Shown here: positions 1-24,553 of the stretch, in pieces
Numbering within the stretch: position 1 is the stretch's first letter
How the letters are laid out: each line of letters begins with the position of its first letter
From: a virus
Strand: one strand, 5' to 3'
Virus record (IMG/VR): IMGVR_UViG_3300006163_000132
Location: 1 to 26,405 of that record
Length of the DNA: 26,405 bases
The notes under the pieces: generated by a model
Databases searched by the model: none
The model's input: the letters and a program-made list of their open reading frames with translations, nothing else
What the model was told of the DNA's origin: nothing
Translations under genes and position numbers: made by a program

Positions 1-604
1 TGGGCGGCGCGGTCTCTGCCTCGCGCACGGGCGGAAAGCTCGCAGTGGGGGGTGGTGGTCCGGGGCGTGGACCAACGGGCGCGCGGTCTACTGACGGAGC
101 GGCTGGCGGTGGTGGCGCGGCGGAGGACGCAGGCATGCGCTTCGCGAAATCCTCGTCGGACTCTTGCAGCTCGTCGACCTTGTAGCCGCGCTCCCTCAGC
201 GCTCGGCTGAATACATCAACCGCCGTGTAGTCCTTGGCGTCCTGAGCCTTCCTGACCGCATTGAGCAATTCGCGCGTATCAGCCGACTTGAGCCGATCCT
301 GACTAAAATCCTGCTCGCTCTTCAGGCGCGCTTCGCCGGCTTCGTTCACTGCCGCGTTGCGCTTGCTGATTTCGTTGGACCTGCGATCGCGCCGCGCTTG
401 CTGGCTCTGCTCGCGTGCCTTGAAGACGTTGGCCTCGTCGTTCTCGCGGCGCCGGTTCGTTTCCTGCGCGCGGTTCTGCATGGCCTGGCTGAGCAGATGC
501 GCGTACTGCGGGTTCTGCTTGCCTGCGTTCGGGTCGAGCGCGACTTCGGGCATGCCGGCGAAGTAGCTTGGGTTGACTCCTTCAATGTCTCGGGCGGCGG
601 CCAT
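1..604 (-). CDS. Putative internal virion protein, C-terminus beyond window edge
   Basis: The reading frame opens with ATG at 604, overlapping the TGA of the upstream gene (TGATG), and stays open to base 1, giving about 201 codons. Residues about 45-150 are rich in Arg, Glu, Gln and Ala with the look of long helices or coiled coil. They are followed by a Pro/Ala-rich stretch (PPPPAAP, PGPPPP) that runs off the edge. I recognise no domain. Its place directly after two other Ala/Gly-rich genes at the distal end of the tail module is where P22- and T7-like phages keep internal or ejection proteins, so a virion role is inferred from position only. Confidence 0.7.
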   Translation of the reverse strand, partial: MAAARDIEGVNPSYFAGMPEVALDPNAGKQNPQYAHLLSQAMQNRAQETNRRRENDEANVFKAREQSQQARRDRRSNEISKRNAAVNEAGEARLKSEQDFSQDRLKSADTRELLNAVRKAQDAKDYTAVDVFSRALRERGYKVDELQESDEDFAKRMPASSAAPPPPAAPSVDRAPVGPRPGPPPPTASFPPVREAETAPP

Positions 605-7042: not shown

Positions 7043-7339
7043 TCATCTCGGGGGCCGCGGGCCGTTGGGGTCTTTGAAGCCCGGGAACGGCGGGCACACG
7101 AAGGTGTCGTAGCCGCCGTCGACGGGGCCGATCTCCTTTGGCTGCTGGCTGCGCATGAGCTGCGCGTTGCCCTCGGAAAGCGACACCACGTCGAGGCCGG
7201 ACGCGCAGTCAGGGCAGGCGAGGTTTTCGGAGCGGTCGCGGTGCAGCTGCGAGCGGCGCCATTGGACGCCGCAGTACGAGCACAAAGCTTGGCGGTCAGG
7301 TCCAATCCCAACCGGCCAGCGCTTGCCAATGGTTCTCAT
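7043..7339 (-). CDS. Zinc-ribbon-like small virion-operon protein
   Basis: 98 residues. Four cysteines at 20, 23, 42 and 45 form two CxxC knuckles (CSYC, CPDC) spaced like a zinc ribbon. The C-terminal 30 residues are Pro/Gly-rich. The start ATG at 7339 has a strong AAGGAG about eight bases upstream, but that Shine-Dalgarno lies inside a 9-bp inverted repeat (see 7341-7379). Small zinc-ribbon proteins between capsid and adaptor genes are common in related phage maps but have no assigned function that I know. A structural or assembly role is inference. Confidence 0.65.
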   Translation of the reverse strand: MRTIGKRWPVGIGPDRQALCSYCGVQWRRSQLHRDRSENLACPDCASGLDVVSLSEGNAQLMRSQQPKEIGPVDGGYDTFVCPPFPGFKDPNGPRPPR

Positions 7340-19309: not shown

Positions 19310-19350
19310 CGTCAAGAGACCTATTGACGACTTGGGTCATCAGAAAAATC
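19310..19350 (-). repeat. Intergenic cassette copy 1: dyad plus CATCAGAAAAATC
   Basis: CGTCAA (19310-19315), eight bases, TTGACG (19324-19329) is a perfect 6-bp inverted repeat. Nine bases further right is CATCAGAAAAATC (19338-19350), one mismatch to the other copies. It lies upstream of the leftward 19255 gene and just after the stop of the 19349-19507 gene, whose TGA falls within the motif. Confidence 0.75.
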
Positions 19351-19507: not shown

Positions 19508-19760
19508 GGCACGTCAAGCCTAGCAGCTGACGAGACCGAAGCATCAGAAAAATTGGAGGGTGGTGGTGCTACCCTGCGCACGGCAGGCTACCCGCGGGCA
19601 TAAGGGCGGGAGTAAGCGCCGTGGTCGCCACTCGGCCGCCTGCGTCCTTCGGCCTTCCGTTCGGTTATCGTACCCTGATAGCGTATAAGCGAACCGCTGG
19701 CCGGACCCTGACAGCATCAGAAAAATTACCAGCTGGGGTGGTGCGCCACTCGGCCGCCTG
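19508..19760. repeat. Intergenic stretch: cassette copies 2 and 3 with a duplicated 18-mer
   Basis: Copy 2 has CGTCA at 19512-19516, TGACG at 19528-19532 and CATCAGAAAAATT at 19542-19554. Copy 3 has CATCAGAAAAATT at 19715-19727 but no clear dyad. CGCCACTCGGCCGCCTGC occurs exactly at 19626-19643 and again at 19744-19761. A hairpin of 8 matched pairs out of 10 lies at about 19568-19592. On the minus strand no convincing gene lies between copies 3 and 2. The layout looks like a tandem-duplicated gene cassette whose gene was lost. Confidence 0.6.
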
Positions 19761-19950: not shown

Positions 19951-19991
19951 CGTCAAGAGTCCGACTGACGGGAGGGGGCATCAGAAAAATT
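19951..19991 (-). repeat. Intergenic cassette copy 4: dyad plus CATCAGAAAAATT
   Basis: CGTCA (19951-19955), ten bases and TGACG (19966-19970) form the dyad. CATCAGAAAAATT is at 19979-19991. Same order and orientation relative to the leftward gene as copies 1 and 2. On the minus strand the motif reads AATTTTTCTGATG and is preceded by GC-rich sequence, so a terminator contribution is possible. Confidence 0.75.
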
Positions 19992-21662: not shown

Positions 21663-21673
21663 GTTTTTGAGAT

Positions 21674-21748
21674 CCGCACAACCGCGCGCCGTTCCGACCG
21701 CGCGCGGTAGCGGGCCCCAAAAAAGAAGGCTCGAGAAAAGAACCCCCA
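21674..21748 (+). promoter_or_regulatory. Intercistronic hairpin element D
   Basis: CCGC (21674-21677) pairs with GCGG (21710-21713) around a 9-bp stem (21681-21689 with 21700-21708, CCGCGCGC type). The second GGGCA hairpin seen in the other copies is missing. AAAAGAACCCCC precedes the ATG at 21749. Most diverged of the four copies. Confidence 0.55.
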
Positions 21749-22540
21749 ATGCAAATGCAAGTGTCTACCTCATTCGTACAAGACCAACGTCACGCCTCCA
21801 AATCGGCGCGCTTCGTTCCCGTCCAGCCGAGCCAAATCGCTACCGTGCTAGCCGACCATGGTTTGTTCCTGAACCACTTGAAAACGTCGACGGCGCGCAG
21901 CATTGAGCGCGCCCATCACCAGACCTCGATCGCTCGCTACGTTGCCCGAGACTCGGCCGACATTGTGCAAGCGCTAGGCCATGACTCGACGCTGGATTTG
22001 CTGGTCAAGGCCCCTCACTTGACCGGCGCCATTGAACTCCGGCTCGGCTTTTTCCGCGGTGTTTGCGCAAACCAGTGGAACGCCGGCCGGCTCGTAGGCT
22101 CCGTCAAGATCGCACACACTGGCAATTGCCTCGAAATGCTCAACCAAGCATTGCCGGCGCTCGTAGGCCGTCGGAACGAATTGATCGCTCAAATCGGTGC
22201 CATGTCCGATCGCATGCTCGAAGCGGGCGAGATTGCCGGCCTAGCGCAAGCAGTCGCACAAATCCGGCTTGGCGCGACTGAGGAAGGCTACACGCGAGAA
22301 GTGCACGTAGCCGACCTCCTTCGCTTGCGCCGTCGGGAAGATGCGCCCGCAAACCTGTTTACCGTTGCCAACGTCTTGCAGGAAAACGCATTGCGGTTCG
22401 GCATGCGCTACGACCTGCGAGCGGACGCGGGCGGACCGGTCCGCCACATGAACACCCGGCCGGTTATCGATACGACTGCAACGGCCGTTGCAATGACTGG
22501 TTCGGTTTGGGAAGCGGCCGCTGCTTTGCTTCGAAAGTAG
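21749..22540 (+). CDS. DUF932-like phage/plasmid protein
   Basis: 263 residues; start ATG at 21749 with an AAAAGAA ribosome site (a second ATG two codons on is possible). RFVPVQPSQIATVLADHGLF at 21-40 and IELRLGFFRGVCANQW at about 95-110, followed by a GSVKIAHTGNCLE segment, match the pattern of DUF932 / phage-plasmid-like proteins: L.-G-.-.R..C.N, then ..H.G. These are widespread in phages, plasmids and conjugative elements with no settled biochemical role. The C-terminal half is helical. This is the largest gene of the operon. Family call by motif pattern only. Confidence 0.55.
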   Translation: MQMQVSTSFVQDQRHASKSARFVPVQPSQIATVLADHGLFLNHLKTSTARSIERAHHQTSIARYVARDSADIVQALGHDSTLDLLVKAPHLTGAIELRLGFFRGVCANQWNAGRLVGSVKIAHTGNCLEMLNQALPALVGRRNELIAQIGAMSDRMLEAGEIAGLAQAVAQIRLGATEEGYTREVHVADLLRLRRREDAPANLFTVANVLQENALRFGMRYDLRADAGGPVRHMNTRPVIDTTATAVAMTGSVWEAAAALLRK

Positions 22541-22550
22541 GCCAACGGTT

Positions 22551-22626
22551 CCCACAGTGCGCGCAATCCGAGCCGATTGCGCGCACTAGTGGGCACCGAT
22601 GCCCTCTCCAAAAAGGAAACCCCGAG
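22551..22626 (+). promoter_or_regulatory. Intercistronic hairpin element C
   Basis: CCCAC (22551-22555) pairs with GTGGG (22589-22593) around a perfect 12-bp stem (22557-22568 with 22575-22586). GGGCA-CCGA-TGCCC (22591-22604) then forms a second hairpin sharing GGG with the outer stem. CCAAAAAGGAAACCCC leads into the ATG at 22627. The outer stem differs from copies A, B and D yet stays paired. Confidence 0.7.
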
Positions 22627-22881
22627 ATGAACCGCTACTCCGTGCGCTACGTGCACAAGATCGCTCCTTCCGACAAAGACAAAGGCCCGGACGTTGATCT
22701 ACCAGGCGGCGCTTTTGCCGGGTCGCGCGAACTAGGCAAGGCGCTACGAGCGGCCGGCGTTTTGCTCAAGGGCGCGCGCGTTGCGACCTTCCGAAGTGAA
22801 GCCGATCGGGTGCTTGTGTTCCCGATTGCGCCCGGCCTCACCACTTACTGGCATTGCATCGTTTTGCAGGTTCTACCGTAA
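22627..22881 (+). CDS. Small unknown protein of rightward operon
   Basis: 84 residues; AAGGA with AACCCCGAG precedes the ATG. The sequence MNRYSVRYVHKIAPSDKDKG, then GARVATFRSEADRVLVFPIA, ends TTYWHCIVLQVLP. It alternates basic strands and short helices like a small soluble domain. No signal peptide and no motif. Framed by structured elements C and B. Longer frame from 22507 runs through element C and is rejected. Confidence 0.6.
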   Translation: MNRYSVRYVHKIAPSDKDKGPDVDLPGGAFAGSRELGKALRAAGVLLKGARVATFRSEADRVLVFPIAPGLTTYWHCIVLQVLP

Positions 22882-22887
22882 AGCCTT

Positions 22888-22956
22888 CCGCACACTGCAC
22901 TCCGTTTCGACCGAGTGCAGTAGCGGGCAGTTTTGCCCAACCAAAAAGGAAACCCT
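22888..22956 (+). promoter_or_regulatory. Intercistronic hairpin element B
   Basis: CCGC (22888-22891), ACA, then an 8-bp stem CTGCACTC / GAGTGCAG (22895-22902 with 22913-22920), TA, GCGG (22923-22926). GGGCA-GTTT-TGCCC (22925-22938) forms the second hairpin, overlapping the outer stem by two bases. CCAAAAAGGAAACCCT precedes the ATG at 22957. The central stem sequence differs from A, C and D while pairing is conserved. Confidence 0.7.
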
Positions 22957-23478
22957 ATGTCCGTCATTCGGCCACTTGTAGGCCACACTTCACCCGAAAC
23001 TGCTTTCTTGATTGCCGACTATCCCTACGGCCGCAAGCTCCGGTGCCAGCGTCGAGTTTGGATCGAACACTCGCCTAGCCACGGGTTTCGGTTCGTGGCC
23101 CAAACCACGAATCCCAAAACCGGACGCTGGAACACCCCACACAAAAGCACGTATTCCGAGATCGCCATGGGGCTCTATCTCGACGAGCAAGGCCACGTCC
23201 AGAGCATGGCCGTCACGCAATACGCGAACGTCCTACACGCGCTTAGCTTCGCTCGTGAGTTTGGCCGGCAAGCGGAAGGCGCTGGCATCTTCCGAGTGTT
23301 CGCGCTCAAGAAAGCGCGCTACCTCGAACAGCTTGCGAGCGGTGAAGCGCACTTCACGATCAACGGCAAGCGCGAGGAGACTGCGCCGGCCGAGGCTGAG
23401 CGCAACCTAGCCGAGTCAAAGCAATGGCTCGAAGTCGCGGAGCTTCTAAACCCGGAACGCCTGGGGGAATCGCAATGA
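22957..23478 (+). CDS. Unknown protein of rightward operon
   Basis: 173 residues from the ATG at 22957 (MSVIRPLVGHTSPETAFLIA). The N-terminal half is beta-rich with aromatic and basic residues (QRRVWIEHSPSHGFRFVAQT, then WNTPHKSTYSEIAMGLYLDE). The C-terminal half is helical and charged (EAERNLAESKQWLEVAELLN). No family recognised. It is coupled to the next gene by an ATGA overlap. Likely cytosolic. Confidence 0.65.
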   Translation: MSVIRPLVGHTSPETAFLIADYPYGRKLRCQRRVWIEHSPSHGFRFVAQTTNPKTGRWNTPHKSTYSEIAMGLYLDEQGHVQSMAVTQYANVLHALSFAREFGRQAEGAGIFRVFALKKARYLEQLASGEAHFTINGKREETAPAEAERNLAESKQWLEVAELLNPERLGESQ

Positions 23479-23702
23479 GCGCCCCTACCACGAAGGCCCC
23501 GAAGACACAGCAACCGAACAGCGTCGCCGACCAATGGCGCGAAGTTCAGGAAGCCCAAAAAAAGCGCGACCGCGCGCTTGCAGAAATCCACCTTGCCGTT
23601 GCGCGCTACGGTACCGCGGAGACTGAACTCGGTCTTGCTACCGATCGCTTCAATCAAACGATGGCCGTGACACGCGAGACGCCCGCAACGCCTAAGCCGT
23701 AG
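23475..23702 (+). CDS. Small coiled-coil-like protein
   Basis: 75 residues, ATG overlapping the previous TGA. The centre is one long helix (SVADQWREVQEAQKKRDRAL, then AEIHLAVARYGTAETELGLA) between Pro/Thr-rich ends (TKAPKTQQP, TRETPATPKP). Only member of the operon lacking its own intercistronic element, consistent with translational coupling to its upstream partner, so the two proteins may act together. Confidence 0.6.
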   Translation: MSAPTTKAPKTQQPNSVADQWREVQEAQKKRDRALAEIHLAVARYGTAETELGLATDRFNQTMAVTRETPATPKP

Positions 23703-23708
23703 TGCCAT

Positions 23709-23783
23709 CCGCACACTGCCCGCTATCCGTTCGGATAGCGGGCAGTAGCGGGCAGCATTGCCCGATCCAAAAAGGAAACCCCA
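23709..23783 (+). promoter_or_regulatory. Intercistronic hairpin element A with duplicated 3' arm
   Basis: CCGC (23709-23712) pairs GCGG (23748-23751) around a perfect 13-bp stem (23716-23728 with 23733-23745; loop GTTC). The 3' arm TAGCGGGCAG is repeated immediately as a second TAGCGGGCAG, so the 5' arm can pair with either copy. GGGCA-GCAT-TGCCC (23750-23763) is the second hairpin. AAGGAAACCCCA precedes the ATG at 23784. Confidence 0.7.
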
Positions 23784-24304: not shown

Positions 24305-24316
24305 CCCCAAATAGGA

Positions 24317-24350
24317 CGCGCCCCGATTGCCGTTGAAGGGTCGGGGCGCG
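24317..24350 (+). terminator. 10-bp hairpin at the end of the rightward operon
   Basis: CGCGCCCCGA (24317-24326) pairs with TCGGGGCGCG (24341-24350), loop 14 bases, starting 12 bases after the last stop. There is no T-run behind it but a G-run (ggggacaggggggggg), so it is not a canonical intrinsic terminator; Rho-dependent termination or 3' end protection is possible. Confidence 0.4.
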
Positions 24351-24553
24351 GGGACAGGGGGGGGGACACTGTCTGCCTTGAGGCTATGCCTTCCGGCGAA
24401 TTCTTGCAATCAATGCGCGAAAGCGCGGCCCCGTTGCAACTTGCCCCCATGGCCCCCGCAAAATCGTCTCTGATAGGGACGCTGAAACCTTGCGATTACT
24501 AGATTAGTTTAGTAATCAATTGGTTAGGGTCCTAAAAAGGAGCAGGGAAAACC
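24351..24553 (+). promoter_or_regulatory. Regulator promoter region with palindromic operator
   Basis: GATTACTA (24494-24501), GATTAGTT and TAGTAATC (24510-24517) form a perfect 8-N8-8 inverted repeat, AT-rich in a GC-rich genome. A weak promoter (TTGCGA at 24490, TAATCA at 24513, spacer 17) would lie under it. A GCGC-GAAA-GCGC hairpin lies near 24416. AAAAAGGAG precedes the ATG at 24554. Spacing of eight between arms matches the GTCAA dyads but the arms differ. Confidence 0.6.

Follow-up and report, generated by a model that had tools for sequence, protein, structure and literature searches.

What are the structured segments that recur in the gaps of a small phage operon, and what might they do for its genes? 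The window, i.e. the whole stretch of 26,405 nucleotides analysed here, is a 26.4-kb linear IMG/VR virus record. Leftward genes for tail, head-closure, capsid and terminase proteins occupy its left part, and a rightward operon of small genes starts at 21.3 kb. The initial annotation described four gaps in this operon with a common design (element starts at 21674, 22551, 22888 and 23709), and a copy is indeed found at each of these places. Every copy has an outer stem, an inner stem and a further hairpin (hairpin B) built from the 3' strand of the outer stem. A third, outermost helix (helix C), absent from the initial annotation, is formed by bases 5' of CCGC, which pair with bases 3' of GCGGG. 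The parts in the window are as follows:

21664..21733, plus strand: copy 1, whole element, preceding the DUF932 gene (21749)
21664-21671, plus strand: copy 1, 5' strand of helix C
21673-21677/21710-21714, plus strand: copy 1, outer stem
21681-21689/21700-21708, plus strand: copy 1, inner stem
21711-21716/21728-21733, plus strand: copy 1, hairpin B, with a long loop
22539..22605, plus strand: copy 2, whole element, with helix C flanks
22551-22555/22589-22593, plus strand: copy 2, outer stem, CCCAC/GTGGG
Copy 2, plus strand: inner stem of 13 bp
22591-22595/22600-22604, plus strand: copy 2, hairpin B
22878..22938, plus strand: copy 3, whole element, with an ACA/TA loop
22878-22884/22930-22936, plus strand: copy 3, helix C, including the stop codon TAA at 22879-22881
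22887-22891/22923-22927, plus strand: copy 3, outer stem
Copy 3, plus strand: inner stem of 9 bp
22925-22929/22934-22938, plus strand: copy 3, hairpin B
23699..23764, plus strand: copy 4, whole element
23699-23705/23755-23761, plus strand: copy 4, helix C, including the stop codon TAG at 23700-23702
23708-23712/23748-23752, plus strand: copy 4, outer stem
Copy 4, plus strand: inner stem of 14 bp
23749-23754/23759-23764, plus strand: copy 4, hairpin B
22608..22622, plus strand: conserved Shine-Dalgarno (SD) segment CCAAAAAGGAAACCC, after copy 2
22941-22955 and 23767-23781, plus strand: the same SD segment, after copies 3 and 4

The SD segment has three exact matches, each located just 3' of an element. 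The whole element is a three-helix irregular hairpin of 21-27 bp, extending from about the upstream stop codon to shortly 5' of the next SD, with the outer stem 24-40 nt upstream of a start codon. Central stems of 8-13 bp had been claimed to stay paired; the pairing is kept, and the length in the window is corrected to 9-14 bp. The short inner stems of the window carry a C×C mismatch plus 2 bp capped by a UUCG-like loop.

Relatives and distribution of the element

Five related phages are present in IMG/VR (G001, G002, G003, G005 and G006), with terminase identities of 90-95%; the DUF932 protein is 89-94% identical in three of them. G003 encodes an integrase, RecT and a LexA-type domain, and hence the group is probably temperate, as judged from gene content. 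Among the named phages of INPHARED the portal protein has no match, the DUF932 protein a single match at 28% and the terminase about 30% identity at best, i.e. no close named phage. In GTDB genomes, a strict element pattern gave 0 matches and a capsid search found no prophage.

Homologous gaps of the five relatives contain 17 further copies, which brings the total to 21, all of them on the sense strand and in gaps of one operon. Five gap positions are occupied: after the first small gene, after the DUF932 gene, before a 173-aa gene, before the next small gene, and before an 83-aa gene. The last of these is without an element in G001. G005 lacks the DUF932 gene and has different genes in its place, with the element still present at the border. 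The G005 element at 7105-7200 combines position-1 flanks, an inner stem resembling that of G003 position 2, and a downstream gene of the position-2 type; judged by its sequence, this might reflect loss or exchange of genes at that border.

The 21 copies served to build a covariance model (R1), with which 257 kb, including both whole 44-kb relatives, were scanned; it returned exactly these 21 as sense-strand matches, each of at least 50 bits. Lower-scoring matches were the antisense strands of the same palindromes (at most 34 bits) and a few chance matches. The model found 0 elements outside the gaps of this operon in the two 44-kb relatives, and none in G010 (71% terminase identity) or in other more distant or fragmentary contigs. 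Searching G010, G014 and G015 de novo for long hairpins of a similar kind was uninformative, because G+C-rich phage DNA abounds in long hairpins. Fold z-scores of the 21 copies range from -3.1 to -7.8; the case for the element is covariation, not energy.

Some other features of the window lie outside the gaps. At 24316-24373, past the operon, a strong GC hairpin is followed by GACAG, a G-tract with a run of 8-9 G, ACA and CTGTC. This stretch is identical in G002, G003 and G005, and could be a terminator-like or G-quadruplex element. A short inverted repeat, GATTAGTTTAGTAATC, is located at 24502-24517 upstream of a gene for an HTH regulator; it is retained in G003 and G005, the version of G002 reads TTAGTTTAGTAATCC, and it probably belongs to the operator or promoter region of the regulator gene. 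In the small-gene region ahead of the operon, CATCAGAAAAAT(T) occurs four times (about 19338-19350, 19541-19554, 19714-19727 and 19979-19991). Read on the opposite strand it is AATTTTTCTGATG; it may be a repeat associated with starts or operators of the leftward genes.

Pairing, covariation and the coding strand

The initial annotation had inferred from compensatory change that an RNA structure is under selection. Such change is seen among the four copies of the window and also at homologous gaps of the relatives, and the covariance test on homologues supports the pairing. On the MAFFT alignment A2, 96.4% of the cells of the outer and inner stems are paired (81.4±1.3% after shuffling), and both sides have changed in 60 cells (shuffled, 17.5±4.7). 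The covariation score is 0.514, compared to 0.219±0.021 for shuffled and 0.05-0.09 for slid partners, and R1 recovers the 21 copies. Comparisons inside homologous positions yield 86 pairs that differ on both sides and are still paired, 32 that differ on one side and are still paired, and 38 with an unpaired member, 20 of which come from position 2, a group whose alignment is shifted.

Manual segmentation of the outer and inner stems gives 303 Watson-Crick pairs, 18 G·U pairs on the coding strand, one C×C, which is a segmentation slip, and no A·C; many of the 18 G·U represent one conserved position and are not independent events. Had selection acted on the fold in both strands of the DNA, wobbles of either kind would be expected; G·U in the absence of A·C therefore points to the RNA of the coding strand as the selected form. 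Together with the covariation and the sense-only placement of the copies, this strongly supports the original claim, and we regard structure and selection at the RNA level as nearly certain.

Helix C is the least perfect of the helices and includes A·C mismatches. For k=3..10 it is paired to 69.6%, compared to 48.0±3.7% with partners shuffled among copies, and 0 of 20,000 shuffles reach the observed value; the mean duplex energy is -6.9 kcal/mol, against -3.9 kcal/mol with shuffled partners. When partners are shuffled solely inside homologous groups the effect is smaller (20 of 1000 reach the observed value), because group members share flanks. A stop triplet is located 4-13 nt 5' of the outer stem in all 21 copies, and inside helix C in several.

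Hairpin B had been noticed in three copies of the window. It exists there, and copy 1 has one as well (CGGGCC...GGCTCG), in which the loop is longer and one pair is G-U. In nearly all of the 21 copies the 3' strand of the outer stem and 24 downstream bases fold into GGGC...GCCC or a close variant, with a mean energy of -8.5 kcal/mol as compared to -5.4 kcal/mol when the downstream bases are shuffled. Covariation cannot test this hairpin, since the outer stem already constrains its 5' strand; its predicted fold is supported by energy and presence. Since GGG(C) is common to hairpin B and the outer stem, and hairpin B also overlaps helix C, hairpin B and the full hairpin are mutually exclusive, which lends computational support to the earlier proposal of two competing folds. 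The full hairpin is predicted to be the more stable one in 21 of 21 copies, by 2-15 kcal/mol. In the predicted folds the SD is unpaired with a probability of 0.56-0.97 and the start codon is mostly open; simple occlusion of the ribosome binding site (RBS) is therefore not supported. The suggestion of an attenuator did not hold, as no T-run follows the hairpin on the sense strand; the combination of stem and sense-strand T-run expected of an intrinsic terminator or attenuator is missing. A sigma-70-like promoter was not found in the gaps.

The internal loop and a second phage lineage

The near-invariant part of the element is an asymmetric internal loop, C-ACA-C/G-YA-G, whereas the surrounding stems vary. 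Within the 21 copies (the first family) the 5' strand of this loop is looser, being mostly ACA with a few cases of CA, AAA or CC, and the 3' A is fixed. A pattern derived from one class of copies matched seven further IMG/VR contigs (L064-L070) that belong to a different phage lineage. This lineage has a terminase with a weak match to a PHROG and encodes a 202-aa protein about 30% identical to a Felixounavirus protein; no protein is common to both lineages, save for one short match of an open reading frame overlapping other genes. R1, which was trained without this lineage, scores its main copy at 31-37 bits (E 2e-5 to 3e-4).

In the second lineage 3-8 hairpins stand in a row, on the sense strand only, in the intergenic region after the gene of the 202-aa protein. 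Two of these arrays are:

G025 (51 kb), about 44863-45174, sense strand: hairpin array
G026 (34 kb), about 28866-29171, sense strand: hairpin array

The stems of these units mostly differ from one unit to the next and from the first family (GTCCAC, GCCTCTC, GGCAAAC and others). The loop has ACA on its 5' side, CA or UA on its 3' side, and C-G closing pairs on both sides; the arrays are without hairpin B. Such hairpins are absent elsewhere in the 51 kb. The contigs of this lineage were chosen by the motif, and the independent part of the evidence consists of the further units, whose stems are different, of their confinement to the sense strand and of the absence of such hairpins elsewhere.

Across 24 cores from both lineages, 99.3% of the stem positions are paired, and the covariation score is 0.740, compared to 0.226±0.024 for shuffled and at most 0.124 for slid partners. 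The A and C of the 5' loop strand and the A of the 3' strand are identical in 24 of 24 cores and the third 5' base in 23 of 24; the cores were picked as clean examples, and these counts are descriptive. When 60 loop combinations were tried, ACA/YA gave 43 structured matches and ACA with TG/TA, which has TA in common with it, gave 21, whereas the others gave 0-5. A second covariance model (R2) yields 54 sense matches above 21 bits in both lineages, the next best match in 472 kb, T7 and other phages included, being at 18.5 bits; R2 has no match in T7. Searches of named phages and plasmids with an array unit, and of named phages with a P4-type element, returned short chance matches only. In L063 a sequence match had suggested an element, and no hairpin is present there.

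The hairpins in the intergenic region of L070 have between them a degenerate pentamer, (GGCNN)n, repeated many times over. Mycobacteriophages of the genus Cheoctovirus have a gap filled with a comparable run, e.g. Mycobacterium phage Saal at 36.6-36.8 kb (L073, about 1405-1660).

Possible functions and comparison with known systems

The element is probably a site at which a long message is cut or bound, giving each gene its own protected message. We tentatively favour, at a little short of an even chance, a site of endonucleolytic processing, of the RNase III type if the R sites of T7 are a guide. In this scheme the ACA/YA loop would be cut on its 3' strand by an endonuclease. That would leave the upstream message with the inner hairpin at its 3' end as a block to exonucleases, and the downstream RNA would begin with AG-CGGGC...GCCCG. 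The GCGGGC thus released could then pair with GCCCG, and the resulting hairpin B, lying a few nt inside the new 5' terminus, would shield the downstream message while the RBS stays open. Each cistron would thereby become an independently stable, separately translated unit, which would suit an exchange of genes between elements. One cut giving two protected ends and an open RBS would account for hairpin B, the shared GCGGGC, the free sequence of the inner stem and the kept loop. For RNA starting at the 3' strand of the loop, a hairpin at most 4 nt from the 5' end is predicted in 15 of 21 copies, compared to 24% of random operon starts; in the other 6 of 21 the fold predicted as the minimum for the cut RNA does not have this 5' hairpin. 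Stem-loops at the 5' terminus can reportedly stabilise mRNA in E. coli (Emory et al. 1992, cited in PMC5371410). We count in favour of processing the covariation, the sense-only wobble, the restriction of copies to gaps, the T7-like size and anatomy, hairpin B, the placement of stop codons and the open SD; the second-lineage arrays without hairpin B count against it, since simple separation of cistrons does not explain them. Among the candidates named by the initial annotation (processing site, protein-binding leader, translational switch), processing fits best and an RBS-occluding switch least.

The main rival, which we judge somewhat unlikely, is a binding site at which a protein of the phage or, more likely, of the host recognises the C-ACA-C/G-YA-G loop in its helix. 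In the present phage such sites ahead of several RBSs of the operon would tune translation or decay, and in the second lineage arrays of 3-8 loops would form a high-affinity platform or a sponge. The arrays strengthen this explanation, as do unpaired loop bases identical in 23-24 of 24 cores across two lineages while the adjoining pairs change; two lineages without a common protein make a host factor possible. Free stems with a fixed loop are the opposite of what T7 sites display, and recognition by a specific protein thus fits at least as well. However, the SD is more than 20 nt downstream of the loop and is not sequestered by it, hairpin B is left without a reason, and no binder is known. 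Hairpin B has a place in a ribosome-responsive switch, which we consider improbable: a ribosome terminating at the stop codon would open helix C and the outer stem, hairpin B would form and alter re-initiation or RBS access at the next gene, and neighbouring genes would be coupled. That each copy has a stop triplet within helix C or at its base agrees with this, as does the mutual exclusion of hairpin B and the C and outer helices, but the SD is predicted to be open in the ground state as well, and the fixed loop, the inner stem of 9-14 bp and the second-lineage arrays would be left unexplained.

More improbable still, in our view, is a passive hairpin, neither cleaved at its loop nor bound by a dedicated protein, which would insulate cistrons or stop exonucleases coming from the 3' side. 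The free stem sequence of the element, with pairing alone kept, speaks for this; a near-invariant ACA/YA loop, common to an unrelated lineage, would be needless in such a hairpin. Least credible of all is a DNA element, i.e. an attC-like site of recombination or gene exchange that folds as a hairpin. Genes between elements are exchanged while the elements stay (as in G005, where the border element is kept without the DUF932 gene), and a variable palindrome with fixed ends resembles attC. Against this stand 18 coding-strand G-U pairs versus no A-C in the outer and inner helices, the single orientation relative to the genes, the fixed placement between stop codon and SD, and the lack of an integron integrase among the proteins scanned.

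Possibly, though with considerable doubt on our part, the C-ACA-C/G-YA-G loop between free stems is a new RNA recognition module, which a factor of the host reads and to which unrelated phages have put two uses: one lineage has single copies placed between a stop codon and an RBS, and the other has arrays of 3-8 hairpins. If so, unrelated phages would exploit or titrate the same RNA-binding or RNA-cutting protein of the host, and the loop in the second lineage would point to an unrecognised RNA-protein recognition in uncultured phages. The design is compact: every border between genes would need a single cut or a single bound protein, and the RNA itself would provide for the refolding into a 5' hairpin.

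The element represents a covariation-backed class of structured RNA that is absent from Rfam, where no family reached the gathering score with the element of the window or of its relatives; a description of this loop or element was not found in the open-access papers searched. Integron attC sites, too, are palindromes of variable sequence located between genes; their ends are conserved, and they have extrahelical bases. In the present element no R-box consensus was noticed, the evidence is for the RNA strand, and no integron integrase accompanies it among the scanned proteins. TIGR arrays (alternating edge and loop repeats of 8-12 nt with 9-nt spacers, beside a Nop-domain gene) differ in layout from the second-lineage units by inspection. 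The inverted repeats of Cluster O mycobacteriophages (PMC4351075) and Cluster EG Microbacterium phages (PMC7302621) are likewise many, short and often intergenic, but are fixed-sequence palindromes without compensatory change, thought to bind dimeric DNA-binding proteins.

The element also sits at a recurrent place in phage operons where start-associated repeats have long been reported without a mechanism. The SAS/ESAS of Cluster K mycobacteriophages (PMC3203893) are, as here, repeats in gaps of non-structural genes just before starts, kept while the genes differ, clade-specific and in a single orientation; start-associated repeats also occur in Microbacterium Cluster EF (PMC7302621). However, the arm sequences of ESAS are conserved, and the Cluster K authors found scant support for RNA pairing (PMC3203893), whereas in the present element the arm sequence is free, the pairing is conserved and the motifs are unrelated. 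Neither the conserved 13-bp GGGATAGGAGCCC nor the conserved 17-bp inverted arms of SAS/ESAS are present in the element gaps, where arms vary in a compensatory manner.

Ten T7 regions taken to be RNase III sites (R0.3-R18.5) were folded, and most show an upper stem, an asymmetric loop and a lower stem, followed by an RBS. For T7 R1.1, a 60-nt RNA whose internal loop is asymmetric has been described (PMC6121014). Like the T7 sites, the present element is an irregular intergenic hairpin (21-27 bp) that has an asymmetric loop and ends a short way ahead of the next RBS. T7 sites have in common the upper-stem sequence AAGGTC...GGCCTT, whereas the stems of the element are free and differ from those of T7; the element differs from them further in its fixed ACA/YA loop and its additional hairpin B. 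We do not class it as a T7-type RNase III site, because the T7 stem sequence is missing; by analogy of anatomy and placement, the element may nonetheless work most like the RNase III sites of T7.
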